Shown here: positions 17,044-31,459 of the stretch, piece after piece
Numbering within the stretch: the stretch's first letter is position 1
How the letters are laid out: the number at the start of each line of letters is the position of its first letter
From: Oceanococcus sp. HetDA_MAG_MS8
Lineage (GTDB): Bacteria > Pseudomonadota > Gammaproteobacteria > Nevskiales > Oceanococcaceae
DNA: 64,000 nucleotides
Reading direction: 5' to 3'
Assembly (NCBI GenBank): GCA_019192445.1
Contig: JAHCMK010000002.1
Coordinates: 372,001-436,000 of the forward strand
Notes under the pieces: generated by a model
The model's database searches: none
What the model saw: the letters and a program-made list of their open reading frames with translations, nothing else
What the model was told of the DNA's origin: nothing
Translations under genes and position numbers: made by a program

Positions 17044-18234
17044 TCAAGCGCCAGTCAGCCGTTGCCACAGGCTCCGAGACTCGGCGGATGCTTGAGGGCC
17101 GCGTCCGCGATGCAGCGACTCTGCAAGGCTCATAAAGCTGCGTGCACTGGCATCGCGTGGCGCCACTTTGAATAAAGGCTCGCCGCGATTGGCGGCCTGC
17201 GCGCGTGCTTGCGGGCTCCCGCGAAGCTCAACCCATAGCGGCAGTTCCAACAATCGCGCCAGGTTCGGCGCATCTAGTGCCTGAATCCCTCGGCCCGAAT
17301 CGCAAATCAGACCCAGCCTTTGTAGGGGTATATCTTCGTGGCGCAAAGCCTGGAGCAAGGCGCGGGTGGCGCGGCTGCTCACAATCCCTCCATCGCTCAC
17401 CAAAGCCGCGTGCGTGGCATCTTCCAAACACAGGCGTGCCACCGACACCGGCCAATGCGGGCCTATGGCACAGACGATATGGCGGAAATGCTCGCGCAGA
17501 ACCGGTAGCAGGGAGCCCAACTCCTTTTCACCCAAGGGCGGTGGGCCAATCAAATCTTCGGGTAGGCTGAGCACATACAGGCCCTCGCCCCCATGCCGGG
17601 CAAAGGCACTATCAATCAAATTCGCATCGCAGCGATAGGTGTCGCTAATCGCGTCCAACACCGAATAGCTCTGATTCAAATCCAGATGCACCAGCGCCGC
17701 ACCATAAGGCAGCGCCAGATCTAGCAGCAACACACGTTCTCCGGGCTGCACTTGTTGCAATAGCGCCAAGGCCATGTGCGCCGCGCAAAAACTCAAATCT
17801 CCAAGCCCGCTAGGACCCAAGAGGGTAATCAGGTCCGCAGAGCGGGTGTTCGCACTCGCTCCACGATCAGAGCCTGCCTGCTGCAGCTTATTCCGCAACA
17901 AGGTGTCCAAGCGATGGCGGATTTCCTGATCATCGCGCCCCATCACGAAGATATCCGCAGCTCCGGCACGAACCAAACTGATCGCGCTATCGCCGGGGCT
18001 GTCCATTGACACAGCCACCATCAGGGCTGACATGGCCCGCCCTACGTCTCGGAGCAGGCTGGGATTAGGCTCTACCAAGATCGCATCTGGCGACTCCAGC
18101 CGAGCCAGCTGCTCTAGCGCGGGATCTTCGGGGTCATCGGGGCGAATCCAATGCAGCTCGCAGTCATCGCCGAGCACATCTGCTAACCAACTGGCATACA
18201 AGGGGTCTGTAGCGATTAATGCAACAGCCAACAT
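17044..18234 (-). CDS. tadZ: TadZ/CpaE-like MinD-family protein with degenerate Walker A
   Basis: A 396-residue protein with an N-terminal atypical receiver-like domain (about 1-110) and a C-terminal MinD/ParA-like fold, as in TadZ/CpaE proteins that position the Tad machine at the pole. The Walker A position (residues 140-148) reads GPSGLGDLS. Both lysines of the deviant Walker motif are missing and the threonine is absent, so nucleotide hydrolysis is doubtful; degenerate forms are known in this family. It sits between rcpA (2-bp gap) and tadA. Confidence 0.85.
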   Translation of the reverse strand: MLAVALIATDPLYASWLADVLGDDCELHWIRPDDPEDPALEQLARLESPDAILVEPNPSLLRDVGRAMSALMVAVSMDSPGDSAISLVRAGAADIFVMGRDDQEIRHRLDTLLRNKLQQAGSDRGASANTRSADLITLLGPSGLGDLSFCAAHMALALLQQVQPGERVLLLDLALPYGAALVHLDLNQSYSVLDAISDTYRCDANLIDSAFARHGGEGLYVLSLPEDLIGPPPLGEKELGSLLPVLREHFRHIVCAIGPHWPVSVARLCLEDATHAALVSDGGIVSSRATRALLQALRHEDIPLQRLGLICDSGRGIQALDAPNLARLLELPLWVELRGSPQARAQAANRGEPLFKVAPRDASARSFMSLAESLHRGRGPQASAESRSLWQRLTGA

Positions 18235-18236
18235 GA

Positions 18237-19595
18237 TTAGCGACTCAAGCCGGCATCGAAACGTCCGGACTCCTGGAACAGTAGCTCGCCGAAGGAGGGG
18301 TCATAGCTTTCTAACTCTTCCCCAGGCATGGGTGGCAGTTTGGTTCCGGCGGGAATGGGCCCGACCAAATGCGGGGTCACGACCATGATGAGCTCACGCT
18401 CTTCTTGGTCATACAGACTGGAGCGGAAGAAGCCACCCAAAATGGGCAAGTCTCCTAAAAACGGAAGCTTGTCGACGTTCGCCATCATGTTGCGGCTGAC
18501 CAAACCACTGATCACGAAGCTCTCACCATCGGCCAGTTCCACCACGGTATCGGTGCGCCTAACGGCCAGGGCTGGAACCGAAGTACCGCCCACCTGGACG
18601 GCGGCTGTGAAATCCAGCTCACTCACCTCCGGAGCGACCCTCAGGCTGATCCGCTGGGCCCCTAACACTGTGGGCGTCAGCGACAGCCGAACCCCGAACT
18701 CTTTGTACTCGATGGTGATAGCACCATTCCCGCCACCGCCTTGAGCGACTGGAATGGGGAATTCGCCGCCGGCCAGAAAGCTGGCTGTTTGTCCAGAGGT
18801 GGCTACCAGCGAGGGCTCAGCCAAGGTTCGTACCAAACCTTGGTTTTCCAGCAATGACAAGAAACCCAGCACATTGCGGCTAGCATTTCCCAGCACGATA
18901 TTGAAGGCATTCCGCAGCGGCAGAAAGCCGGCATCGCTCTCAAACACAACAGGGCTGGTGAAGGGGTTATCACCATTCGGAGGCGGACCCAAACTCGCTC
19001 CACCGAGCGTACCCGGGCGAGTGACTGCCACCGAGCCATCCAAGCGATTGAGCAGCAGATTAAAACCAAACTGGCGCATGGTGCTGCGCGACACCTCCGC
19101 AATCCGGATCTCCGTCATCACCTGCGCGGGCAGGCTCACTTGGCTGGTGTCCTTAGCATCTTTACCGGCAAGCTCACGCGCCTTCGCGTGGGAGCGCAGA
19201 TCCTTGAACTGGCCTTGTAGACGATCCTTGGTGATTTTCGCGGCCCGTAGTTCAGGGTCGGACTCAGGAGGCTCCAAGGGATTTTCTACCGGCTGTACCG
19301 CCAGCTTATAGGCTGCCGTGCGGTTACTGTTTTGAAACCAGATGAGCAGGGAAGTGACACCCTGGGCTTTGCCGGTAATTAACAGCTCTCGCGGGCTCAC
19401 GACCGCAACATCGGCAATGCTGGGGTCACCCACAGCGACGCGTTTCACATTCTGCTGACGCAGTAGACGATGGGTGCCCTCCTCAACGGTCAATACACCG
19501 CCACTGGGAGTCACAGTTGCGGCCGCCATCGTGCCAGTCCAAGCTACGCTGAGCAGGCAGATGATGCTCAGTCTCCAACATAGCTGCATGCTCAT
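18237..19595 (-). CDS. rcpA: RcpA/CpaC Tad secretin
   Basis: A 452-residue outer-membrane secretin through which the Flp pilus passes. It has a signal peptide (ending about residue 25), a pilus/BON-type N-domain (RLLRQQNVKRVAVGDPSIADV), a long spacer and the secretin domain with LLENQGLVRTLAEPSLVATS, GGEFPIPVAQGGG and the C-terminal VPFLG-like LPFLGDLPILGGFFRS. The start overlaps the rcpC stop by 4 bp. Pilotin RcpB is not evident in the cluster. Confidence 0.93.
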   Translation of the reverse strand: MSMQLCWRLSIICLLSVAWTGTMAAATVTPSGGVLTVEEGTHRLLRQQNVKRVAVGDPSIADVAVVSPRELLITGKAQGVTSLLIWFQNSNRTAAYKLAVQPVENPLEPPESDPELRAAKITKDRLQGQFKDLRSHAKARELAGKDAKDTSQVSLPAQVMTEIRIAEVSRSTMRQFGFNLLLNRLDGSVAVTRPGTLGGASLGPPPNGDNPFTSPVVFESDAGFLPLRNAFNIVLGNASRNVLGFLSLLENQGLVRTLAEPSLVATSGQTASFLAGGEFPIPVAQGGGGNGAITIEYKEFGVRLSLTPTVLGAQRISLRVAPEVSELDFTAAVQVGGTSVPALAVRRTDTVVELADGESFVISGLVSRNMMANVDKLPFLGDLPILGGFFRSSLYDQEERELIMVVTPHLVGPIPAGTKLPPMPGEELESYDPSFGELLFQESGRFDAGLSR

Positions 19596-20485
19596 CGCCC
19601 GCCCTCCTGGGTCTGTTGATCTGCCCTAAACACTTCCACCTTGAAGGGAGCAGGTCCGGGCTTGGGAGTGGGCGTTGGCTTCTTCACTTTGGTGAGTTCG
19701 GTCAAGGTCACAGCTTGTTCTACATCAAAGTCCGGCGACGGCGTTGGAGTTACAAGTGGCACATTCCCTTCGGGCTCGGCCAGGTCGGCTTGCTGGCGGC
19801 GTAATGCCAAGCGCACATCACCAACGCTGGCACCGAGCATAACGCGTGTCACCTGGGTTTCCGGCACCGCAACCACAGCTGTGCGCACACGACCACGCTG
19901 CGCTCTAGAAGTAGAGTCATCCACACCTTGAGGACGCTCAATAATGCGTTCCTCGTACGCTAAGACCAACACATCGTCGAGCAGGATGCGGCTTTGCGCC
20001 AATTGTTGGGTATCCCGTAGGTGGACCAGAAGATCCACGCGGTCTCCGGGACGCACGAAGCCTCCCACAGCGACAACATCGCTAATCTCTAAGGACAAGG
20101 CCCGATGCCCTTCAGGAATTAAGCGGGCGAGCACATTGGCGTCTTTGAAGTAGCGTGGCGTGATCGGCGCGCCCGCATCAATGTCTAACAGCGGCACGCG
20201 GCCGACCACATCTTCAATGCTGGTGTAATAGCGGCTAGGAACAACCGCCAATGGCTTCAAGGCTACAGCGGTTTCCGCTACCGGCTGGTTCGCCGGCAGA
20301 GGCTGCAGGGCGACTACCGCCAAAGACTGGGGCTCCGCCACAGGTGCGGTCGCAATAACCTCTTGTACCGCCTCCTGCCGAGCGGCTTGAGTGGCGTTTT
20401 GAGTCGCCCGCCAGGCCAGTCCTCCGAGGATAACTGCCAGCGCCACGGCGACTACCGCCGCCACTTTCAGGCCCTGCCCGTTCAT
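19592..20485 (-). CDS. rcpC: RcpC/CpaB Flp pilus assembly protein
   Basis: A 297-residue protein with an N-terminal membrane anchor (about 7-27), an SAF domain (LKPLAVVPSRYYTSIEDVVG, followed by APITPRYF) and an RcpC/CpaB periplasmic domain (VGGFVRPGDRVDLLVHL). RcpC associates with the secretin. The C-terminus is a proline-rich tail. A GGGGAG ribosome-binding site precedes ATG 20485. It is separated from tadE by 141 bp and starts the second run of tightly packed tad genes. Confidence 0.9.
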   Translation of the reverse strand: MNGQGLKVAAVVAVALAVILGGLAWRATQNATQAARQEAVQEVIATAPVAEPQSLAVVALQPLPANQPVAETAVALKPLAVVPSRYYTSIEDVVGRVPLLDIDAGAPITPRYFKDANVLARLIPEGHRALSLEISDVVAVGGFVRPGDRVDLLVHLRDTQQLAQSRILLDDVLVLAYEERIIERPQGVDDSTSRAQRGRVRTAVVAVPETQVTRVMLGASVGDVRLALRRQQADLAEPEGNVPLVTPTPSPDFDVEQAVTLTELTKVKKPTPTPKPGPAPFKVEVFRADQQTQEGGR

Positions 20486-20626
20486 ATCACTCCCCTGTGC
20501 TTAGTGCTCGCATGCGCATTGTTGGCAGATTGACCAGACGGTTGCTCAATGCCCATTTTATCTGTCCTTCACAACACGGCGGTGTCGACCCAAAGCCGAT
20601 GGCGCGCATATTGTTATATGCCAAGA
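20486..20626 (-). promoter_or_regulatory. tadE-rcpC intergenic region with small palindrome
   Basis: This 141-bp gap separates the pilin part from the machine part of the Tad locus. It holds an inverted repeat at 20606-20621 (GCATAT, loop TGTT, ATATGC) immediately after the tadE stop. There is no U-tract, so I do not call a terminator. It could be an operator or mRNA element that sets different levels of pilin and machinery; I see no convincing -35/-10 pair. Confidence 0.3.
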
Positions 20627-21103
20627 CTAACTCGATCCGCCCACCAACACACTCGCAGAAGCGTTGAGAACTGCCGGCAGCGGCGGAATTTCGCCAACAA
20701 AGGGAAGAACCACGGCCGGAAACAAGCCTGCCAAATCGAAGTTTAAGTTCACTTCAACCACACTACCGGCCGGATCAGCTACCAGGCTCACATCCACGGC
20801 GTCGCCGTTACTTCCCAAAACACGCGCTTGTTGGGGTTCGGGCAACCACACCAGAGCGCGCACAGCACCCTCTCGAGCTTGTGCGCGAACGGTATCAACA
20901 TAAGCGCCACCCGTAGCCTCGGGGCTCACGGACACCGCCCTAGAAGCCGCCTGCTGAGCGGCAAAGGTGATGGACTCCTGCAATACCAAGACGTAGGAGT
21001 ACACGATGACCCCGTACAGCAGGGCAAAGAGCAAGGGAAAGATGAGGGCGAATTCCATTGCTGTGGCGCCAGTTTGCCGGCGCCAGCGCACTACAGGCCT
21101 CAT
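20627..21103 (-). CDS. tadE: TadE minor pseudopilin
   Basis: A 158-residue pseudopilin with a class III prepilin-like N-terminus: a basic leader, then GATAMEFALIFPLLFALLYG, with cleavage expected after the glycine and glutamate at +5. The rest is a small periplasmic domain. TadE is required for Flp assembly. It lies 34 bp downstream of flp1 on the same strand. Processing needs a prepilin peptidase, and none is encoded in this cluster. Confidence 0.87.
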   Translation of the reverse strand: MRPVVRWRRQTGATAMEFALIFPLLFALLYGVIVYSYVLVLQESITFAAQQAASRAVSVSPEATGGAYVDTVRAQAREGAVRALVWLPEPQQARVLGSNGDAVDVSLVADPAGSVVEVNLNFDLAGLFPAVVLPFVGEIPPLPAVLNASASVLVGGSS

Positions 21104-21629: not shown

Positions 21630-21794
21630 AAGGTGCCCTCCGACCAAACCTAAGTCCGCTTATGCCAGGGTCAAGGTCAAGAGCGGGTCAACATCGAGCT
21701 GCAAGGGCTTGGCGGCAACCTAGGGGAAGCAGCCCTCAATGGCGCAAAATGAGGCCACCCCCCACCGCTACAGTTTGCGGGCTAGACTGCGGTG
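21630..21794. promoter_or_regulatory. flp2/apaH divergent intergenic region with GGTCAA repeats
   Basis: Three GGTCAA hexamers on the plus strand (TTGACC on the minus strand) at 21669-21674, 21675-21680 and 21686-21691 lie 40-62 bp upstream of the flp2 ATG. The last two are 11 bp apart, the same spacing as near flp1. A clean -10 for flp2 at the right distance is not apparent, so the assignment as promoter or operator is tentative. Confidence 0.35.
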
Positions 21795-22616
21795 ATGAGC
21801 GTTTTTGTTTTCGGCGACCTACAGGGCTGCGCCAGCGAACTCCAATCTCTCGTTGATCAACTTCCGCTCCAGGCGCAGGATGAGCTTTGGTTTTGCGGCG
21901 ATTTGATTAACCGGGGGCCAGACTCGATGGGCACTCTGCAATGGCTGTGGGACCACCGTGCTCGTATACGCTGCGTGCTGGGGAATCATGACCTCTCGGT
22001 GCTCGCTCGATTACATGATCCCCAACGGAAAATGGGTAGCACAGCCTCAGAACTCGCAGCGCACGGGATGGGCTCGCAGTGGGTAGCGTGGTTGCTGGGC
22101 ATGCCATTGATTCAGGTGGGTGCCGGGCTCAGCATGGTTCATGCCGGCATTCCACCGGATTGGGATTTAGAGCTCGCCCTGCAGTCTGCCGAGGAGGTCA
22201 GCGCCCAACTTCGCGCTACGCCCCCCGCGGAATTTTGGCAGCAGCTTTATGGCAACACGCCGCAGCGGTGGACGTCCGAGCTGCGTGGAATGGAGCGCAC
22301 CCGGTATACCGTCAACGCCTTGACGCGCATGCGATTCGTAGAGTCGGATGGCGCCCTAGAGTTCGCCTGCAAATCCTCACCCGAGCAGGCCCCCAAGCAC
22401 TTACAACCCTGGTTTAGCTACTCGCGAAGGCGCTGGACTGCAGGCGACATTGCCTTCGGGCATTGGTCCACCTTGGGGCAGGTGCACTGGCCGCAGTTTT
22501 CTGTATGGGGCTTGGATGAGGGCTGCGTCTGGGGTGGTCACTTGACGGCCCTGCAGTGGCCAGAGCGGCGGCTTTTTCGCCAACCAAGCCCTGGTTACCA
22601 AGAACCAGGAGACTGA
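21795..22616 (+). CDS. apaH: Bis(5'-nucleosyl)-tetraphosphatase, symmetrical
   Basis: Hydrolyses Ap4A to two ADP and also removes Np4 caps from RNA. The 273-residue metallophosphatase shows FGDLQGC, FCGDLINRGPDS, VLGNHD and MVHAGIPPDW, the usual metal-binding series, and the C-terminal WGLDEGCVWGG. ATG 21795 is preferred; the GTG immediately before it is in frame. ApaH usually lies after apaG next to rsmA; here it is alone, 13 kb from rsmA, with the Tad locus between them. Confidence 0.94.
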   Translation: MSVFVFGDLQGCASELQSLVDQLPLQAQDELWFCGDLINRGPDSMGTLQWLWDHRARIRCVLGNHDLSVLARLHDPQRKMGSTASELAAHGMGSQWVAWLLGMPLIQVGAGLSMVHAGIPPDWDLELALQSAEEVSAQLRATPPAEFWQQLYGNTPQRWTSELRGMERTRYTVNALTRMRFVESDGALEFACKSSPEQAPKHLQPWFSYSRRRWTAGDIAFGHWSTLGQVHWPQFSVWGLDEGCVWGGHLTALQWPERRLFRQPSPGYQEPGD

Positions 22617-22780
22617 TCCGCCAGCGCTTCGGGATTGCGTCGGACAGTGGGCAGGGGCTGCCCTTAGCTTTTGTGCCAGTAACCCGAATCACCCTAGTCC
22701 ACGAGTGGCGCTCAAGCCAGCCGGGTGTGACGGTCTCACCATCAGCGCGCGGCGCGTGTCACACGATGCGGCGAGGGCAT

Positions 22781-22811
22781 AAAAAAGGGGGCGCCCGAAC
22801 AGCGCCCCCTT
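22781..22811 (-). terminator. Rho-independent terminator of the DUF1302-YCF48-RND operon
   Basis: On the minus strand a 9-bp GC-rich stem (AGGGGGCGC with GCGCCCCCT, plus-strand positions 22802-22810 and 22786-22794) with a 7-nt loop is followed by six U residues. It lies 28 bp after the RND stop. The rest of the 222-bp gap to apaH shows only a 7-bp GTGTGAC/GTCACAC repeat of no clear meaning. Confidence 0.92.
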
Positions 22812-22838
22812 ATCTTCACAGACCTATAGGTACTCGAC

Positions 22839-25196
22839 TTAGGTCGTCTTTTTCTCAAAGTGGCGATGCTGAACTAAAAACCGGGCTAGAGCGGGCATTA
22901 GCAAGATGGCGCCGAACATGTTCGCCGTGAACATGAACACCAGCAAGATTCCCATGTCAGCCTGGAATTGCAGGTCGGACATCAACCAAGTCGACACCGA
23001 GCCACCCAAGGCCACTCCGGTGAAGATCACTGCCTTCCCGGTACGGTGCAAGGTATCCGTGAAGGCCTCTTCCAGGTTCCTTCCCAGGCTCAAACGATCG
23101 ATCAATGTGGAGTAGATGTAGATCCCATAGTCCACACCGATCCCCACCGCTAGGGCGACGACCGGCAGTGTCGCCACCTTCAAGCCAATGCCAAGCACCG
23201 CCATTAGCGCATAGGCCATGGCGGAGACCAGCGATAGTGGCAACACCACGCACAGCACGCCACAAAGGGTACGGAAAGACAGGAACATGAACACGACGAC
23301 CACCAGGTAGACATAGCCCACGACTTCCAATTCTTTCTTCTTAACCACTTCGTTGGTGGCGGCCATAACCCCCACGTTGCCGGTGGCCAGGGCAAAGTTC
23401 ACATGCTGCGCCTCATTTTGATTGAAGCTCTTAACTTCATTCACGATGCGCTGAATGGTCTCGGCCCGATGGTCCTCAGTGAACACCAACACAGCCATTG
23501 CCGAGCAGTCCGGGTTCAGCAAACCCGAAGACGTCGGAATAGGCGTGATGGCCTGCACAATCACATAACGATTGCGCGGCAGCACCGACATATTCGGCGT
23601 GCCCTCATTGAATTGCCCGTTCACAATCTTTGCGACTTGCGGCAGCGAGATCGTGGAGTTCACCCCTTTGGTGTTGTCCATGCGCCAAGCAAAGCGGTCG
23701 ATCTCCTCCATCACCGGATACTGAATGCAGCTTTCCGGAGGTGCCTCTGCAATCACCTTGAGGATATCCACACCAATGGCGAAGTTGTTCACGATAGCGC
23801 GGGAGTCCTGGTTATAGCGAGACTCTGGACGCAGTTCGGGCACGCCCTCCTGCGAGTCACCCACCTGCAGGTCGCCGTACTTAAACAAAGACCAGCCTAA
23901 TAGCAGTGAGGCAATGAGGATGGTCACCAATGCGGGTACTGGGCGCGAAATCTTGGCAAGGAACTTCCACAGCCCGTCGCCCATCTCTTCGCGTTTGCGT
24001 TGCTTTTCTTGGAAGGCCTCCAAATCATCAATCTTGATGTAGGTCAGCCAAATGGGCGCCAACACTTTGTTGGTAATGATGATGGCGAACATACCAAAGG
24101 AGGCATTGATGGCCATTTCCCGCACGATATCAATGGGGATGAGGTAGATGGTCAAAAAGCCGGCCAGATCGGTAATCAGCGCGGTGGTGCCTGGAATGGC
24201 CAAACGCCGGAAGGTGTTCAAAGAGGCATCGAAAGAGTTCTGCCCTTCCGCCAACTCACCCACCCAGGCGTTGACGTACTGAACCCCGTGACTGGTCGAC
24301 ACACTGAGCACCAGGAAGGGGATCAGAATGGCGAAGGGGTCCAGACCATAGCCAAAGCTGGTGAGCAGCCCGAACTCCCAGATGACCGCAACGATGGAAC
24401 ACACCAGCACCACCATCGACAACTTGAAGGAGGCGGTATACAACCAGAGCAAGGTTGCCGTGAGCAGCAAAGCCAAAATGAAGAAGAACACCACCTCAAG
24501 CGCTGCATCGGTGACATCGCCAATGACCTTCGCAAAGCCGACGATGTGAATCTTGACGTTCTCATCTTCGAATTGCTGACGAATTTGTTCGAGGTTGTCT
24601 GCAACTTCGCGGTAATCCAGCTTCTCACCGGTGACCGGGTCGGTTTCCAGCAACTCGGCGAATACCATGGCGCCGTTTTGCTCAGTGGTGACATAGCGAC
24701 CGATAATGCCTGCCTTACCAACGTTAGCCTTGACCAGCTCGAACATCTCGGGCGTAGGTGCATACTCAGCAGGAATAACGTTGCCGCCCGCAAAGCCACC
24801 TTCTACCACCTCGGTGAACCGCACATCCGGGGTGAACAATGAGCTCACTCGGGACCGGTCTACGCCCGGCAGGAAGAAGACCTCGTCGGTCACAGCCTTG
24901 AGCTTGGACAAGAAGGCCTCGTTATAAATCTCGCCATCCTCTTGGATGAGCGCTACGAGGACCGTATTACCACCCCCGAAGTCCTGCTGATATTTCTTCA
25001 GCGTCTTCATGTAGGGGTGCTCTAGAGGAATCGATTTTTCGAAACCGGCGTCGACGGTGGTTTGCGAGGCCATCCAGCCAAAAAAGATGGTCAAAGCGGT
25101 GAGTACCGCTAATCCCACCATTCGCTTGCCGTAAACAAGGGGTTCGACCACCTTCAGAATGCGGTCGGTCCATGTCGTTTGTTGTGCTTGTGCCAT
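22839..25196 (-). CDS. RND/MMPL-family transporter
   Basis: A 785-residue inner-membrane protein with the RND layout: helix 1 (about 26-44), a large periplasmic loop (45-235), a helix bundle containing LLLTATLLWLYTASFKLSMV and the sterol-sensing-like region, a second large loop (about 440-640), and a final bundle with AVGIGVDYGIYIYS. It is smaller than HAE1 drug pumps (about 1040 residues) and resembles the RND/MMPL group that moves lipids or other hydrophobic compounds. No membrane-fusion or TolC gene is nearby. It sits 17 bp after the YCF48 gene and ends at a strong terminator. The substrate is unknown. Confidence 0.87.
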   Translation of the reverse strand: MAQAQQTTWTDRILKVVEPLVYGKRMVGLAVLTALTIFFGWMASQTTVDAGFEKSIPLEHPYMKTLKKYQQDFGGGNTVLVALIQEDGEIYNEAFLSKLKAVTDEVFFLPGVDRSRVSSLFTPDVRFTEVVEGGFAGGNVIPAEYAPTPEMFELVKANVGKAGIIGRYVTTEQNGAMVFAELLETDPVTGEKLDYREVADNLEQIRQQFEDENVKIHIVGFAKVIGDVTDAALEVVFFFILALLLTATLLWLYTASFKLSMVVLVCSIVAVIWEFGLLTSFGYGLDPFAILIPFLVLSVSTSHGVQYVNAWVGELAEGQNSFDASLNTFRRLAIPGTTALITDLAGFLTIYLIPIDIVREMAINASFGMFAIIITNKVLAPIWLTYIKIDDLEAFQEKQRKREEMGDGLWKFLAKISRPVPALVTILIASLLLGWSLFKYGDLQVGDSQEGVPELRPESRYNQDSRAIVNNFAIGVDILKVIAEAPPESCIQYPVMEEIDRFAWRMDNTKGVNSTISLPQVAKIVNGQFNEGTPNMSVLPRNRYVIVQAITPIPTSSGLLNPDCSAMAVLVFTEDHRAETIQRIVNEVKSFNQNEAQHVNFALATGNVGVMAATNEVVKKKELEVVGYVYLVVVVFMFLSFRTLCGVLCVVLPLSLVSAMAYALMAVLGIGLKVATLPVVALAVGIGVDYGIYIYSTLIDRLSLGRNLEEAFTDTLHRTGKAVIFTGVALGGSVSTWLMSDLQFQADMGILLVFMFTANMFGAILLMPALARFLVQHRHFEKKTT

Positions 25197-25213
25197 GAGT
25201 CCTTACTTCCGCA

Positions 25214-26179
25214 TTAAGGGGTAGTGATGAGCTGTGGGCCGGCATTGCCGACAACCAACAAAGCCTCTTTGAGGGGCATCACGCTTGCCAAGGTGATGCC
25301 TTGTGGGTTGGGCAGCGACTCCACCTCTTGCAGCGCATCACGGGTGCGCAAGACCACCCCGTTGATGCCCACCATCACAATCTCACCATCAGCTAACTGC
25401 TCGGCGTGAATGATGGACTCCTCACCGCCGGTCTCCACCCGTTGCCACTGGCCACTCTTCACATCGGGGCTGTAATAAGCATTGCCACGCAGGCCCGCAA
25501 TGAACACGCCAGACTCGCCTACAGGAGCTGCCGTAAAGAAGGTGCTGCCGTAGGGAGACTCAATGGCCTCCCAGGTTTGCCCAGCATCTTGGGAGAGGGC
25601 CAGCGTTCCTTGTTCTCCTGCCAAGAACAAGTCGCCATTGTTAAGCCGAGTCAGTGCATTGAAGTGCCAGCCATCCGGGTTGGCGCCAGTGACGAACTCG
25701 TCCCAGGATTCGCCACCATTGCTGGTAGTGTAGACGCGGCCGTAAGCGCCGACCGCCCAGGCGGTTTGTGGATCCAACATCAGCACATCCAGAAAGGGCA
25801 TATCGGTGTCCATTTCCGGCTCTTCAACGGGCTGAAAGTTTTGTAAGACCCAGCTGCGACCACCGTCTCGGGTGCGCAAAATCGTGGAATCGTGACCGAC
25901 AGCCAGGCCATTCATGGGGTCCGCGAAATCTACTGCGGTGAGATAGGAGCGCACCGGCGTCGGCGCTTGCACCCAGGTCTCGCCATCCAATGACACCACC
26001 ACATGTCCACGCTCACCAACGGCCACGAGGCGTTCGCCCGTGTCGGTGACATCCAGCAGTACAGACTGGTCTGCCAAAGGCATCATCTCAGCCGGTTGCG
26101 GCGAAATTTTTTGACTGATGCCCTGTGCTGATACCACCCCAGCGGCCAAGGCCAGGCCGAGGCCCACGCTGTATCTCAT
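25214..26179 (-). CDS. YCF48/BNR-repeat periplasmic beta-propeller protein
   Basis: A 321-residue exported protein with a signal peptide (about 1-19, ending VVSAQG) and six or so short repeats of the type LRTRDGGRSWVLQNF, YTTSNGGESWDEF and LSQDAGQTWEAIE, which form a YCF48/HCF136-like beta-propeller. In photosynthetic organisms such proteins assist photosystem II assembly; in heterotrophic gammaproteobacteria they accompany DUF1302 and RND genes, where the role is unknown. GGGGAG precedes ATG 26179. It may act as a periplasmic adaptor between the transporter and the outer-membrane partner. Confidence 0.87.
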   Translation of the reverse strand: MRYSVGLGLALAAGVVSAQGISQKISPQPAEMMPLADQSVLLDVTDTGERLVAVGERGHVVVSLDGETWVQAPTPVRSYLTAVDFADPMNGLAVGHDSTILRTRDGGRSWVLQNFQPVEEPEMDTDMPFLDVLMLDPQTAWAVGAYGRVYTTSNGGESWDEFVTGANPDGWHFNALTRLNNGDLFLAGEQGTLALSQDAGQTWEAIESPYGSTFFTAAPVGESGVFIAGLRGNAYYSPDVKSGQWQRVETGGEESIIHAEQLADGEIVMVGINGVVLRTRDALQEVESLPNPQGITLASVMPLKEALLVVGNAGPQLITTP

Positions 26180-26201
26180 ATTGGTCTCCCCAAGTGAACG
26201 A

Positions 26202-26229
26202 CACCGGCACGGCCAAGGCCGCGCCGGTG
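26202..26229 (-). other. Strong intercistronic hairpin between DUF1302 and YCF48 genes
   Basis: Near-perfect 13-bp stem in the 79-bp gap: positions 26202-26214 pair with 26217-26229 with one G-U pair in the minus-strand RNA. No U-tract follows, so it is not a classic terminator. Such stems often protect the 3' end of an upstream message and could keep the DUF1302 transcript more abundant than the downstream genes. Confidence 0.55.
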
Positions 26230-26258
26230 CTCAGATTAACGTGATCTTAGCTGCAAGA

Positions 26259-28703
26259 TCAGAATTCGTAACGCAACGAGAATGCCAGAGTGTCGCGGTC
26301 GGCGCGAGAGTTCCACTTCCCGTTGATGTAGGTGTAGCGCAATTCGGTGAACCACTTTGACAAATAATCGAAGCGCAGGCCCAGCAAACCTGTGAAGTTA
26401 CCTTCGTAAAAGTTTTGGCCGATCCCCGGCGCAACGCCATCGATGTCGTAAAAGGCACCGATCAGGGGCTCGAAGTTGGCGCCCATGAAGAAGTCTTGGT
26501 AGCGGATCAAGCTGATAAACCGCACGCCATAAGATACGGCATCACCAAACTGCTCTGGATCTTCTGCGGTGGGGTTTTGCCGGCAAGGCTCTGCCTCGTA
26601 AGGGCCAAAGCGATCGGAGTCAAAGGTCCGTCGTAAGCACTCCTCGTTGCCATTCCCAGCCGTGGTGAATCCACCTGACACCGCAGCACTATCGGTCACG
26701 CCCAAGTTTTGGGTGCCATCTGCGCCTGAGGAGATATGCGTGTTGGTTTCAGCCCCTTGAAACTGGAGCTCGTCCAAGCTCGGCATATCAACCACATGGG
26801 TCAAACCAGCCTCAGCAATCAATATGATTTGCGAGGCTTTGAGAGGGTTGTCACCACCAATGGTGTTCAGGAAGGTGGTTGTGAGCTGACCCAATTTCAC
26901 CCGCTCAAAACCCGGAATGTAGTAGTTATCTCCGCGCGGGTCGTTGACAGGATCGAATGCGCGATCTCGATAAATTGTCTCGACGTAGTCAGGGACAGCA
27001 ATCCGTCGGCCTGGCAGTACGATCGCAGTTGCCGGGATGGGCGCCGCTTCTAGCGCTGGGTTCACCAGAGCGTTTTGCAGCGCCGTCAGCAGTTCGCTGG
27101 CTCCAGGGATAGGAGGCAAGCTACCCGACAAGTCAATATCTGTGAGGTTAATACTGTTTGTTGGGAAGGCCGGCTGCAGTGAGGCATAAGTCAAATCCAC
27201 CGAGTGAATCTGCAACGGCATATTGGGTCGGAAGCTGTACTCACCCGACCAGGCCCAGTTACCGATGGTGGTGTTGAAGCTGAAGCCAAACATTTGGATG
27301 TCTTCAACGTACTCTACGAACAACTCCGAGGTATCTACCGGCAATGGCTCTCCAGCGAGCCTCAGGCTACCGATGTCACCCTGACCCACGCCACAATTAA
27401 GCGCGAGTTCAAGCACGTTGGTCGCGGGGCGGCCGAGTGGATTCACACGAGTCCCTGTGAGTGGGTCGTTGTAGCCTACGTCAGCACAGCTCTGATCGGC
27501 TGACCGGAAACTAATGCTCGGGAGGCGATTGTGATAGTTGGCAAAGTAGAAGCCAAACTCGGTGCCGTTATTGAAATCTTCGGCAAAGTAGCGCAACGCA
27601 AAGCCAAACTGCCCCGTGTCACGTGGCTCCACGTCACGCGCGCGGAACACGGTTCTGCTGGACGCAGATCCCAAGGCAAAAGGATCGTTCTCCGGAGTGC
27701 CGGGAACGGCCGCGCTATTGTCTTGCGAGGAATAAATGCCGTAGGGGTCCTCCGGCGCTTTACCGAAGGACAGCATGGCGTAATAGCCATCGCTATCTTC
27801 ACCACCAACCACGTCAGAGGTAGAGAAGAAGGTGCCGGGGGCATCAATCACGACCGGCCGCCATTCAAACTGATAAAACGCTTCCATAGACAGGTTCAGC
27901 GTGAGGTCTAAACCCAACACCGCCATACCAACCGGGCGGAACAACTCGGCAAGGTCAAATCCCGGCAAGCGAGCCAAACGCTGATCCGGTGGGTTGATGG
28001 TGTTGATGGAGTTCAGCGGCAGTGCAGTGGACTCACCCCAGTTCAAACCTTGGCGCCCCACGCGAATGGATAAGGTGCGATCACCAATGGGCACGAAAGT
28101 GGAGAGGTAGAGGTCTTGCAGCAAGAAGTCGGTTCCGAACTGCTTTTCGGCCTCAAAACCCAAGCTTTGGCGCCCCGGTTGCAAGGTCGTATCAAAACTG
28201 GTGGTGTCGAAACCGTTGATGGTTTCGTTAAAGAACCAGATACCGCGCCCGAAGAGGTTGAAATTCCCAAAGGAAATGTCGATCTTCGAGTTCAACTTGG
28301 CAACGGCCGAGACCACATCGTATTGGTCGAAGTTCATGTTGCCGTTGTCGCCGTTAATGTTGAAGTTCCCAGGAGTTTCTACATAACGGCGGTTGAAGTC
28401 TGGGAGCTGGGTGTCGTTACAGGTACGACCAATGTCGCCCTCCTGCGTGCCCAAGTACTCTGGCGAATCTGTTGCGCCAAAACCATCCGTCGTCCAGTTG
28501 GTGCGCACGCACAAACCTGGGTTGTTGTTCTGTTTGGCAATCAGGTCCTCAGAGCGCTCTTCCATACGCATCGCGGCGCCCACGGTGAAAAAGCTAATCA
28601 CCGAGCCGTAAACGTTACCTATGGAAAATTCCAAGGCATGGGCGGGAACGACCACCGAAGCCCCTAATGCAATCACCACGGCGCGCGGCCAGAATTTGGT
28701 CAC
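26259..28703 (-). CDS. DUF1302-family outer-membrane-type protein
   Basis: An 814-residue exported protein with a signal peptide (about 1-23, ending PAHA), long beta-rich sequence and a C-terminal aromatic residue (ending LAFSLRYEF), which suggests an outer-membrane beta-barrel. Stretches such as RVGRQGLNWGESTALPLNSIN and SWSGEYSFRPNMPLQ-like elements match DUF1302 proteins, which in Pseudomonas and Nevskiales are found with DUF1329, YCF48 and RND genes. No DUF1329 gene is present here. The start is GTG 28703 behind GGGAGAG. The function is unknown; a porin or receptor for hydrophobic substrates is a guess from fold and neighbours. Confidence 0.83.
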   Translation of the reverse strand: MTKFWPRAVVIALGASVVVPAHALEFSIGNVYGSVISFFTVGAAMRMEERSEDLIAKQNNNPGLCVRTNWTTDGFGATDSPEYLGTQEGDIGRTCNDTQLPDFNRRYVETPGNFNINGDNGNMNFDQYDVVSAVAKLNSKIDISFGNFNLFGRGIWFFNETINGFDTTSFDTTLQPGRQSLGFEAEKQFGTDFLLQDLYLSTFVPIGDRTLSIRVGRQGLNWGESTALPLNSINTINPPDQRLARLPGFDLAELFRPVGMAVLGLDLTLNLSMEAFYQFEWRPVVIDAPGTFFSTSDVVGGEDSDGYYAMLSFGKAPEDPYGIYSSQDNSAAVPGTPENDPFALGSASSRTVFRARDVEPRDTGQFGFALRYFAEDFNNGTEFGFYFANYHNRLPSISFRSADQSCADVGYNDPLTGTRVNPLGRPATNVLELALNCGVGQGDIGSLRLAGEPLPVDTSELFVEYVEDIQMFGFSFNTTIGNWAWSGEYSFRPNMPLQIHSVDLTYASLQPAFPTNSINLTDIDLSGSLPPIPGASELLTALQNALVNPALEAAPIPATAIVLPGRRIAVPDYVETIYRDRAFDPVNDPRGDNYYIPGFERVKLGQLTTTFLNTIGGDNPLKASQIILIAEAGLTHVVDMPSLDELQFQGAETNTHISSGADGTQNLGVTDSAAVSGGFTTAGNGNEECLRRTFDSDRFGPYEAEPCRQNPTAEDPEQFGDAVSYGVRFISLIRYQDFFMGANFEPLIGAFYDIDGVAPGIGQNFYEGNFTGLLGLRFDYLSKWFTELRYTYINGKWNSRADRDTLAFSLRYEF

Positions 28704-28875
28704 CGTCTCTCTCCCAGAATTTGTACTTTTCTTCGCGAAGGGCCGCAGTTATAGCTACTGCGGTCAGGTTCTCAGGTTGATTCTCGCAAAGTGGAGGTGC
28801 TCAGGGCAACTCCCCGCAGCTATGTTTGGCCATCCACGGCGCGGTATAGGCCTGGGCTCTTGAGCTCCTACGGGC
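28704..28875 (-). promoter_or_regulatory. DUF1302 operon upstream region with palindrome over a -10-like box
   Basis: The region holds an inverted repeat CCGCAGT (28743-28749) / ACTGCGG (28757-28763) with a 7-nt spacer. On the minus strand the spacer contains TATAAC, a plausible -10 for the DUF1302 gene, although no good -35 is visible. A palindrome over the core promoter would fit a repressor site. Nothing else is apparent up to the pgeF stop. Confidence 0.3.
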
Positions 28876-29652
28876 TCAAGGGAGCAGCGGCTCACGCCAG
28901 ATCAGAGCGGCCATCCGCCCGCTTTGCGAATCCCGCCGATGTGAGTACCAGCGCCGCTCATCACAGGCCGTGCACCCACCCTGCATCGTCACAGATACGT
29001 TCAGTTCGCGTAATTGAATTGCGGCGATGCCCGCCAAGTCCAGAGTCGCATGCCCCCCGCCAATGTCATGTATGCAGGCCCAAGCGGCCGGACCTGTTGC
29101 TGCCACAATGGCATTCACAACCCGCGAATCCACCTCGTAGTGACAGGGGCCAATACCAATGCCAACCCAAGCCACTATCCGCTCGCCTGCAGGCAGATGG
29201 GCACGCATTTCGCGCACTTGCGCGGCCAATACCCCGCTGGCCAAACCCCGCCAGCCCGCATGCGCAGCGCCCACTATACTCCCACTGCTTGCAGTCATTA
29301 GCACCGGCAGACAATCGGCCGCCAGCACCGCCAAGGCCAGGCCCGCATCCCGCGTCCAATGACCATCTGCGCGAGGTTCTTGCCACGCACTGTCAGCAGC
29401 ACGGCGCTGCATGATGTCGGCACCATGAACCTGATGCAGGTAACGAATGCCCGCCTTCAATCCGAGGCCATGCTGGAGTAGGGATCGATTCACGGCGACT
29501 GGCGCCGGAGAATCTCCACATAAGCGCCCCATATTCCAGCCCCGCCAAGGTCCAGTGCTAGTGCCGCCCTGACGCGTCGTCATGGCGGCGTGAACACCCA
29601 TTGGCAGCTCCCAGCGCGGGCGAAGCAAACAATGCTCTACGGCATCAGGCAC
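28876..29652 (-). CDS. pgeF: PgeF/YfiH family peptidoglycan editing factor (laccase-domain)
   Basis: A 258-residue laccase-domain protein. In E. coli YfiH hydrolyses incorrect UDP-MurNAc-Ser so that peptidoglycan keeps L-Ala; related proteins show purine nucleoside phosphorylase activity. Visible zinc and catalytic motifs are LHQVHGADI, AADCLPV, GAAHAGWRG and the C-terminal CDERRWYSHRRD. It overlaps rluD by 8 bp, the usual bamD-rluD-yfiH context with bamD divergent. Confidence 0.93.
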   Translation of the reverse strand: MPDAVEHCLLRPRWELPMGVHAAMTTRQGGTSTGPWRGWNMGRLCGDSPAPVAVNRSLLQHGLGLKAGIRYLHQVHGADIMQRRAADSAWQEPRADGHWTRDAGLALAVLAADCLPVLMTASSGSIVGAAHAGWRGLASGVLAAQVREMRAHLPAGERIVAWVGIGIGPCHYEVDSRVVNAIVAATGPAAWACIHDIGGGHATLDLAGIAAIQLRELNVSVTMQGGCTACDERRWYSHRRDSQSGRMAALIWREPLLP

Positions 29653-30616
29653 TGCGCAAATGCTCCAGCACAGCCTGCATATCTGGAGGCAGGTCTTGGC
29701 TGAAACTTAGCTCTTCCCCAGTGCCTGGGTGGACGAAGCTCAGCCTAGCCGCGTGCAGAGCCTGGCGTGGCAGTAAGCTGCGTAGCGGATCCCCGCGGCG
29801 TCCATACACCGGATCGCCAACTAGGGGCCACTTCCGCGACTGCATATGCACCCGAATTTGATGGGTGCGCCCCGTCTCCAGCTGCACCCGCAGCAGCGTA
29901 TGTTTGGGCAGACGCTCGGCGACCCTGTAGTGGGTAATCGCATGCCGCCCGCCTTGAGAAATGACATAGCGCCGCCGGTCTCGTGGATCACGCCCCAACG
30001 GCGCATCGATGGTACCGCCGGCAATCACTTCGCCCCAGACCAAAGCCAGGTATTCGCGGCCCACCGCACGCTCCGCCAGCGCTCGCACCAGGGCCGTATG
30101 CGCCTCAAGCGTAGCCCCAATAACGAGCAACCCAGACGTGAGCTTGTCCAAGCGGTGCACGATACCGGCTCGGGGCAGAGCCTCTAAAGCCGGGCGATGA
30201 TGCAGCAAGGCGTTTTGCATGGTTCCTGCTGCTTGGCCAGCTCCAGGGTGTACCGTAAGCCCCGCTGGCTTATTCACGACCAGCACAGCGTCATCTTCAT
30301 AAACGACGTCTAACGGAATATCTTCCGCCGCTGGTGGTGCATCTGCGCTTTGCAGGGCGGGCGTGCACAATGCGATCTCACAACCACTGCGCACAGCCTC
30401 GCGCGTTTTGGTCACCGGAGAACCATCGATATTCACTCGCCCTTCACGGACCCAGGCCTGCAGGCGAGCCCGACTGAACTGTGGCACAGCGGCGGCTAGT
30501 ACCTGATCCAGGCGACGCCCATCGTCTTCTTGCGCAACGGCAAACACGAACTGCTCTGGTGGCTTGTCTATACTGTGCGATTGATCTGTCAATTTTGAGA
30601 TTCCGGCGTGGTACAC
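29645..30616 (-). CDS. rluD: 23S rRNA pseudouridine(1911/1915/1917) synthase
   Basis: Makes three pseudouridines in helix 69 of 23S rRNA. It has an N-terminal S4 domain (RRLDQVLAAAVPQFSRARLQ), then the RluA-type catalytic domain with NKPAGLTVHPG and the catalytic aspartate motif HRLDKLTSGLLV, and GRTHQIRVHM near the C-terminus. The start is uncertain: GTG 30616 overlaps the bamD start on the other strand, while TTG 30592 would give a more usual N-terminal length. Confidence 0.92.
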   Translation of the reverse strand: MYHAGISKLTDQSHSIDKPPEQFVFAVAQEDDGRRLDQVLAAAVPQFSRARLQAWVREGRVNIDGSPVTKTREAVRSGCEIALCTPALQSADAPPAAEDIPLDVVYEDDAVLVVNKPAGLTVHPGAGQAAGTMQNALLHHRPALEALPRAGIVHRLDKLTSGLLVIGATLEAHTALVRALAERAVGREYLALVWGEVIAGGTIDAPLGRDPRDRRRYVISQGGRHAITHYRVAERLPKHTLLRVQLETGRTHQIRVHMQSRKWPLVGDPVYGRRGDPLRSLLPRQALHAARLSFVHPGTGEELSFSQDLPPDMQAVLEHLRSA

Positions 30617-31459
30617 AGGTGGTTTAGCAACATTATGGCGGCGCTGGTCACGGCCTTGGCGCTAGTCGGTTGCGCGAATAACGGAGGAGAACTGCCTCCG
30701 GTTAACCCGCTAGACCCGCAATTGGACGAGCGGCGACTCCAACGCGCCAACGCCCAACAGCTTTATAAAGCGGCTCGCAGCGCGCTAGACGCTGGGGATA
30801 ATGCTACCGCGCTCACGCTGTATTCTCGTCTGGACGCCAGTTATCCCTTCACTCCGGAGGCCACTCAGGGCCAGCTCGAAAGCATATACGCGCGTTTCCG
30901 CAACTTTGAGCCTGAAGCCGCTTCTGCCGCTGCCGACCGCTTCCTCCGCGCTCACCCCCGTCATCCGCATGTGGATTACGTGCTTTACCTCCGCGGGCTC
31001 ATCTTTTTCGACTCCACCGCAGTCGACCTGCTCGATCTCTTCGACGTGGACTCTGCAGGCCGCGACCCGGTCGACGCCCGCCGCTCCTTCCAGGAGTTCT
31101 CGCGGTTACTACAAACCTACCCCAACAGCGCTTATTCCGCGGATGCTCGGCGTCGCATGTTGTGGCTACGTGAGCGCATTGCTGAGCATTATTTCGGCAT
31201 CGCTGAGTACTACCGCTGGCGGGGAGCTTGCGTAGCGGCTATCCGCCGCGGCCATGAGATCCTGGACGAGTTTCGGCAAACCCGCGTGGTGCTAGATACC
31301 TTGGGGCTTCTGACCGAGTGTTACGCCACTTTGGGCTTGGATGAGCAAGCCGCCGAAATGGCTCGCCTGCTTGTAACCAACAAGGCTCGCTGGGATAACA
31401 GCCCCGCCGCCTCGCAGCCCGAGCCGGCCGGCGACGCGCCGGCACCACCTGCACTGTAA
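30608..31459 (+). CDS. bamD: BamD, outer-membrane protein assembly lipoprotein
   Basis: Essential lipoprotein of the BAM complex. The 283-residue precursor has a lipobox ALVGC with cysteine 22, and five TPR-like repeats (AQQLYKAARSALDAGDNATA, AADRFLRAHPRHPHVDYVLY, SFQEFSRLLQTYPNSAYSAD, AEYYRWRGACVAAIRRGHEI). GTG 30608 gives a signal peptide of normal size; ATG 30635 would leave only 12 residues before the cysteine. A TATACT -10-like box lies at 30569-30574, without a clear -35. The first codons lie opposite the rluD start. Confidence 0.93.
   Translation: MVHRWFSNIMAALVTALALVGCANNGGELPPVNPLDPQLDERRLQRANAQQLYKAARSALDAGDNATALTLYSRLDASYPFTPEATQGQLESIYARFRNFEPEAASAAADRFLRAHPRHPHVDYVLYLRGLIFFDSTAVDLLDLFDVDSAGRDPVDARRSFQEFSRLLQTYPNSAYSADARRRMLWLRERIAEHYFGIAEYYRWRGACVAAIRRGHEILDEFRQTRVVLDTLGLLTECYATLGLDEQAAEMARLLVTNKARWDNSPAASQPEPAGDAPAPPAL

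Follow-up and report, generated by a model that had tools for sequence, protein, structure and literature searches.

The 64,000-nucleotide stretch analysed here (positions 372,001 to 436,000 of contig JAHCMK010000002.1 from Oceanococcus sp. HetDA_MAG_MS8; hereafter the window) carries an operon of three genes, DUF1302, YCF48 and RND, read in that order on the minus strand. Comparison with related loci reveals a chromosomal address, with bamD, rluD and pgeF on one side and apaH and tad genes on the other, at which YCF48 and RND are always present, whereas DUF1302 and DUF1329 are each present or absent independently; this constant core with swappable outer parts is the strongest new point of our analysis. 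Judging from sequence, we favor, with some confidence, the view that the window operon encodes a transporter of hydrophobic compounds related to the published AmeABCD system, lacking its own DUF1329, with a two-protein inner-membrane core and a LolA-like carrier supplied in trans.

A sequence-only reading of the window had described an outer-membrane barrel, a periplasmic propeller and an RND transporter encoded in a row, and family searches confirmed all three with matches far beyond chance. They are an AmeA-like DUF1302 outer-membrane β-barrel (26259..28703, minus strand; 814 amino acids, GTG start; PF06980, E 8.6e-141), an AmeC-like YCF48/BNR β-propeller (25214..26179, minus strand; 321 amino acids; PF14870, E 1.7e-16) and an AmeD-like, HAE3-like RND/MMPL inner-membrane transporter (22839..25196, minus strand; 785 amino acids; PF03176, E 5.3e-20), separated by gaps of 79 and 17 bases, respectively. 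That reading was also right that the operon is without the membrane-fusion and TolC parts of classic pumps: only these three genes lie inside it, with pgeF and apaH adjoining, and neither a membrane-fusion protein nor a TolC-type channel is encoded in the operon, the rest of the genome not having been searched for them.

The RND protein was aligned and placed in a tree with 134 relatives, 114 from 27 RND-bearing related genomes and 20 from named records. Within 9 kb of the RND gene, YCF48 was found at 109 of these 134 loci, DUF1329 at 80 and DUF1302 at 66, with nine loci marked as truncated by a contig end or too short in their flank. The window's address is shared by 37 loci, defined by the presence near the RND of at least two of nine window neighbors, arranged as nadE, bamD, rluD, pgeF, cassette, apaH, tadE, cpaB, rcpA, tadZ, with not every locus reaching all nine (tadZ, rcpA and cpaB are partly names that we presume; Pfam gives TadE, RcpC/CpaB and secretin, and nothing for ‘tadZ’). 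YCF48 and RND are present in 37/37; because the loci were found through the RND, its constancy holds by construction, which is not so for YCF48. Two loci (L052 and L061) are cut off upstream, and the remaining 35 show every combination of the other two genes: DUF1302 with DUF1329 in seven, DUF1302 alone in ten (the window included), DUF1329 alone in eight and neither in ten. The distance from pgeF to the RND, available for 34 of the 37 loci, is about 5 kb with both optional genes and 1.25–1.5 kb with neither, reaching 7.2 kb in the one locus with two DUF1302 genes (L111); since it shrinks in step with gene absence, no large gene has gone undetected at the address. On a tree that omits L047 as well (34 loci: 7, 10, 8 and 9), these patterns require at least four changes of DUF1329 and at least three of DUF1302.

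The three-gene form without DUF1329 occurs in all four genomes of the family that were examined. The window RND groups with proteins from the same genus (L083) and the same family (L086 and L087) with a support of 100, and since all four members of this clade share the reduced form, it has been stable within the family as represented by these four genomes. Could the genes simply be neighbors by history, their products serving different machines? The comings and goings of DUF1302 and DUF1329 at the shared address would fit such a view, as would several copies in the window's own genome without linkage to an RND of this lineage. We nevertheless regard it as very improbable, since gene order is conserved in the four family genomes, the same four families are assembled in other orders and on plasmids, and cofitness and predicted contacts are reported for the Pseudomonas putida proteins (PMC10866462). 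A search of plasmids gave 40 records with the RND (E ≤ 1e-40), and in eight of these gene content was determined with family models built for the analysis: seven of the eight carry DUF1302, DUF1329, YCF48 and RND together, and four of the eight have an annotated ring-degradation gene within 9 kb (4-hydroxybenzoate monooxygenase, 4-hydroxy-2-oxovalerate aldolase, homogentisate dioxygenase and hydroxyquinol dioxygenase). The eighth, Comamonas plasmid pBHB (L197), has YCF48 and RND alone beside transposases.

DUF1329 in the genome and across genomes

No DUF1329 gene lies within 9 kb of the window RND. The earlier remark that this usual companion is missing is therefore true of the operon and untrue of the genome, which has nine copies elsewhere, together with seven DUF1302, three YCF48 and three RND genes of this lineage (of ten match rows in the RND search, five belong to these three genes and five are weak hits on other RNDs). 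The genome thus has three such systems, and that of the window is alone in having no DUF1329 of its own. The other two are full sets: at C2:621955-629770, DUF1302 faces away from DUF1329–YCF48–RND and the set adjoins an SDR reductase and an acyl-CoA dehydrogenase, and at C4:122006-129337 the order is RND–DUF1329–DUF1302–YCF48, adjoining a P450 and an AraC regulator. We count the position of these paralogous cassettes beside acyl-CoA dehydrogenase and P450 genes in favor of an Ame-type system.

The co-occurrence survey that the earlier reading had suggested was run in 41 related genomes and, with one genome per genus, in 114 genomes across the class, and in both the RND and strong DUF1329 matches fall in the same genomes. 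Among the 41 relatives, the RND (E ≤ 1e-60) is present in 27, DUF1329 in the same 27, and DUF1302 in those 27 and three more; this amounts to few independent events, because all 14 genomes without RND and DUF1329 fall in two genera. In the class survey, the RND (profile A2, E ≤ 1e-60) is present in 16 of 114 genomes, and the best DUF1329 match is at least 238 bits in all 16 and at most 38.9 bits in the other 98, the dividing line between strong and weak being our own, placed in this wide score gap. DUF1302 matches above 100 bits were obtained in 15 of the 16 (the remaining genome, G048, has a 39-bit fragment) and in three of the 98 RND-less genomes, with weaker matches in 12 more. Hence no case of an RND of this lineage without DUF1329 was found in the genomes examined (27/27 relatives and 16/16 of the class), and this is the main reason for proposing that DUF1329 would serve the window system in trans. 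In RND-less genomes, weak DUF1329-like frames of about 270–310 amino acids stand beside weak DUF1302-like proteins (e.g., G091:C95, G140:C8 and G141:C11), apparently forming a distant sister pair.

Two inserts in the RND bear on whether a carrier is needed at all. One, of ~70 residues, precedes transmembrane helix 2 (TM2) in 67 of the 134 relatives, and the other, with extra cysteines and helical-looking by eye, precedes TM8 in 54; their positions in the two halves of the protein correspond, and both are present in 28 relatives and neither in 41, the window RND included. The three genes might work without any DUF1329 if the propeller had taken over the carrier role and insert loss marked a simpler machine. 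In line with this, neither insert is present in the window RND and two relatives from its family, all three with cassettes that lack DUF1329, and YCF48 is constant at the shared address. Yet L083, of the same genus and with the same three-gene cassette, retains the second insert, both inserts are likewise missing at ten loci that have all four genes, and every RND-bearing genome examined has DUF1329. We consider this simpler machine improbable, although less so than adjacency by history, and a tie between insert loss and DUF1329 loss was dropped as unsupported. Within the window's genus, too, the inserts have been gained or lost (e.g., L083:9620-12202).

Which of the nine DUF1329 proteins might act with the operon? 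A first comparison put three that lie outside any RND cassette (L075, L078 and L079) nearest the DUF1329s of shared-site cassettes. A tree with 41 added proteins from 40 more regions drawn among the matches listed, and built without the long-branch rows L150, L179 and L082, placed the three with these cassette proteins in a 42-row clade with a support of 98. The clade is mixed, however, and takes in comparable copies from genomes in which the cassette gene is still present, so the idea that the three are simply the displaced cassette partner was set aside. The three are thus candidate partners, none being singled out as ‘the’ partner. In another own-genome region (L082:5413-15250; C1:170000-189000), genes were found for a LolA_like protein and for an MMPL transporter that carries a cyclic-nucleotide-binding domain, and farther along for an 857-amino-acid TPR–DUF1329 protein.

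Folds, relatives and direction of transport

The barrel and RND models have the folds expected of an envelope-spanning set. The DUF1302 model (AlphaFold; mean predicted local distance difference test score, pLDDT, 87.1; predicted template-modeling score 0.87) is an outer-membrane barrel, as had been proposed, with Occ/OprD channels (Z about 22–23 over about 300–323 residues, 3.3–3.8 Å) and AlgE (Z about 21) nearest. Foldseek template-modeling scores for it were low (query score about 0.2–0.3), so that the Occ likeness rests on the second structure comparison giving these Z scores, which leaves room for families beyond those listed; a PDB sequence search with the barrel gave no match. The propeller matches PDB chains of Ycf48/HCF136 (E 1.4e-16 to 2.4e-14) and has a signal-peptide-like N-terminus by eye. 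For the RND model (pLDDT 84.5), the best PDB matches are MmpL4 and MmpL5, followed by NPC1-type proteins, MmpL3, Patched and HpnN. The best curated model is HAE3 (TIGR00921), and HpnN models score far below their cut-offs (TIGR03480, 69.2 of 751.85 bits; NF052374, 21 of 1100 bits). His303, in TM4 of the model, is invariant in 134/134 relatives, and Asp689, in TM10, in all 131 aligned there, followed by Tyr in 123 of the 131. MmpL3 has paired Asp-Tyr and AcrB Asp-Asp/Lys, so the asymmetric His/Asp pair of this lineage differs from both arrangements. The pump is probably proton-driven.

Set beside HpnN and MmpL3-5, whose families are likewise not known to have a membrane-fusion protein gene beside them, the window RND has the same fold and no adjoining membrane-fusion gene; unlike them, it scores far under HpnN cut-offs, has the invariant TM4 His and is accompanied by a barrel and a propeller. 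With HAE1 pumps such as AcrAB-TolC, the operon shares the RND superfamily and an envelope-spanning set, but it lacks the membrane-fusion protein and TolC-type channel, and the TolC fold differs from the DUF1302 type of outer-membrane barrel.

The statement that no function is established for this set proved out of date, as two relatives have reported phenotypes. In Castellaniella defragrans, AmeABCD belongs to conserved four-gene cassettes of DUF1302, DUF1329, COG4447/YCF48 and an HAE3 RND of 12 TM helices, and its deletion impairs growth on limonene and other apolar monoterpenes and slightly raises Nile Red accumulation; the authors propose export (PMC6394551). By family description, the window operon matches it in combining DUF1302, YCF48 and a probable HAE3-lineage RND in one operon; it differs in lacking DUF1329 (AmeB), in having no terpene genes seen nearby and in its housekeeping neighbors. 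In P. putida KT2440, PP_0765, PP_0766, PP_2018 and PP_2019 are reported as all needed on Tween 20, with cofitness and predicted contacts among the four proteins, strongest between RND and propeller (PP_2018/PP_2019) (PMC10866462). There, too, DUF1302, a periplasmic protein and an RND-type transporter are found, with DUF1329 also present, in two pairs of distant locus numbers: DUF1302/DUF1329 (PP_0765/0766) and propeller/RND (PP_2018/2019). In P. putida both DUF1302 and DUF1329 thus stand apart from the core pair, whereas in the window DUF1329 alone does so.

More distant parallels have been described. A ‘nanopod’ cluster of the benzene-degrading ORM2a, for which the authors propose movement of benzene in a direction unknown, has a porin-like protein, DUF1329, a YCF48-related protein and an MMPL transporter, and differs from the window operon in its phylum (Desulfobacterota), in retaining DUF1329 and in its stress-protein genes (PMC13101534, which also cites a Delftia DUF1329 deletion as impaired on phenanthrene). 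Delftia nanopods contain DUF1302 and DUF1329, whose genes are adjacent in the phenanthrene cluster (PMC3110197); the AphR/AphS/AphT regulons include all four families (PMC6449761); a Zoogloea phenol-hydroxylase cluster has DUF1302 and DUF1329 (PMC7012976); and a Thalassolituus MMPL–LolA protein is reported on C28 alkane (PMC6304351). Among the papers listed by our literature searches, which leave most subscription journals outside, we found no report of a DUF1329-less cassette, of the shared address or of a shared engine.

Taken together, envelope-spanning transport by barrel, propeller and RND, as first proposed, is well supported by the conserved set in four family genomes, the expected folds and the published relatives; the corrections are that relatives have functions, that the absence of DUF1329 is local and that the upstream palindrome is not conserved. 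We infer a complex in which a proton-driven RND of the HAE3/MMPL lipid-transporter type and the YCF48 propeller, its periplasmic docking part, would form the inner-membrane core. Between this core and the outer-membrane DUF1302 barrel, hydrophobic or amphiphilic molecules (of fatty-acyl, terpene or hydrocarbon-like nature) would be exchanged, and the carrier crossing the periplasm would be a LolA-fold DUF1329, encoded in trans by at least one of the nine copies found outside the operon.

As to direction, we lean towards uptake of growth substrates or lipids, to which we give about an even chance, with export the less probable but still serious contender. An export pump would expel toxic hydrophobic compounds or place lipid in the outer membrane, with DUF1302 as the exit pore and YCF48 as an adaptor. 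MmpL and HpnN proteins export lipids, and the RND fold matches these relatives; AlgE, an exporter, is among the structural neighbors of the barrel, but the top barrel matches are Occ channels, which are uptake channels. The published interpretation of AmeABCD and the higher Nile Red signal of its deletion mutant speak for export, whereas that difference is described as slight (PMC6394551), and the failure of mutants of the relatives to grow on Tween 20 or limonene is equally explained by uptake.

Several observations weigh against the DUF1329-in-trans transporter that we favor. AmeABCD, the only characterized relative, is read by its authors as an exporter (PMC6394551). The window RND, at 140 bits, falls below the curated HAE3 cut-off of 351.9. 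Co-occurrence among the 41 relatives is clustered, the double absences coming from two genera, and at loose thresholds DUF1329 matches appear in 50 of the 114 class genomes (E ≤ 0.001) or 47 (above the Pfam cut-off of 23.1 bits), mostly weak and partial at 20–40 bits, so the clean 16/16 rests on strong matches. At the shared address, the constancy of the RND is built in and the loci come from related species rather than independent draws. The DUF1329s of this genome that come closest to the cassette type are old paralogues, and they have relatives in genomes from which the cassette gene has not been lost. Finally, the operon's neighbors are housekeeping genes by Pfam and synteny, so the substrate is not readable from gene context.

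Operon boundaries and neighboring genes

Downstream, the operon is closed by an intrinsic terminator (22785..22811, minus strand; an 11-pair stem with a T-rich tail). The strong terminator noted earlier is thereby borne out: of four terminator-like sites in 22600–29000 none is stronger, and no more than two of 200 shuffles fold equally well (z −2.8), the number of such sites not exceeding chance (four versus 6.3 in shuffles). In the same interval no sigma-70-like promoter was found, versus 2.7 in shuffles. The palindrome of the upstream region does exist (CCGCAGT-N7-ACTGCGG; 28743..28763, no strand assigned), with a second dyad at 28859–28880. It is weak evidence, because roughly 0.2 such dyads per 260 bases are expected by chance and none with arms of at least 7 was found upstream of the three closest orthologues (L083, L086 and L087); for want of such a dyad there, its role as an operator was rejected.

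At the boundary between the DUF1302 and YCF48 modules, 3′ of the DUF1302 stop, lies a G+C-rich hairpin of 13 pairs without a T-run (26201..26230, minus strand), and the three closest orthologues have a hairpin of different sequence at the matching position. By a simple scan, hairpins occur between DUF1329 and a following YCF48 in 19 of 37 cases, between DUF1329 and RND in four of six, and between DUF1302 and YCF48 in seven of 22, all seven being among the ten three-gene cassettes without DUF1329; they are rare between YCF48 and RND (3/83) and between DUF1302 and DUF1329 (4/31). Counter to a clean boundary rule, they occur in 9/17 cases between DUF1329 and DUF1302 and in 0/4 between DUF1302 and RND, and the counts are confounded by gap length (the window YCF48–RND gap is 17 bases), so that 3/83 is no clean control. 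The boundary hairpin suggests different expression levels for outer parts and inner core, and no more than that.

The flanking genes, assigned by Pfam and synteny and common to most shared-site loci, are pgeF/yfiH upstream (Cu-oxidase_4; 28876..29652, minus strand; PF02578), rluD (29645..30616, minus strand; PF00849), bamD (YfiO; 30608..31459, plus strand; PF13525) and, downstream, an apaH-like metallophosphoesterase gene (21792..22616, plus strand; PF00149). Beyond it, tad/Flp pilus genes (TadE, RcpC/CpaB and secretin; window 17044–21103) belong to a block that is conserved next to the operon at many of the order's loci. As a guide to substrate, these neighbors gave nothing useful. Elsewhere in the genome (L077:6483-10462; C7:30000-45000), a 726-amino-acid lipase-like protein (PF12262/abhydrolase) with a lipoprotein-like start by eye is encoded 2 bases upstream of a DUF1302 gene with no RND nearby, which suggests an ester-degradation operon with a DUF1302 port.

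A constant core with swappable outer parts

We also envision, tentatively and with less confidence than for either direction of transport, that YCF48–RND could be a shared, address-fixed inner-membrane engine powering interchangeable DUF1302/DUF1329 outer modules drawn from multi-copy families genome-wide, much as one TonB–ExbBD complex serves many receptors. The cassettes at the bamD–apaH site would then differ merely in the outer parts parked beside the engine. The 27 RND-bearing genomes of the order hold 365 DUF1329 and 294 DUF1302 matches versus at least 114 RND genes (counted as genes of at least 500 amino acids in the regions covered, some being split by contig ends), and a shared engine, if true, would explain why DUF1329 outnumbers lineage RND genes about threefold.

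How oily compounds cross the envelope of Gram-negative bacteria is poorly understood, and DUF1302 and DUF1329 are still listed as unknown in Pfam, yet they recur beside genes for hydrocarbon, aromatic and ester degradation. The fixed-address comparison separates a constant core, RND and YCF48, from swappable outer parts, and it predicts that DUF1329 can act in trans.

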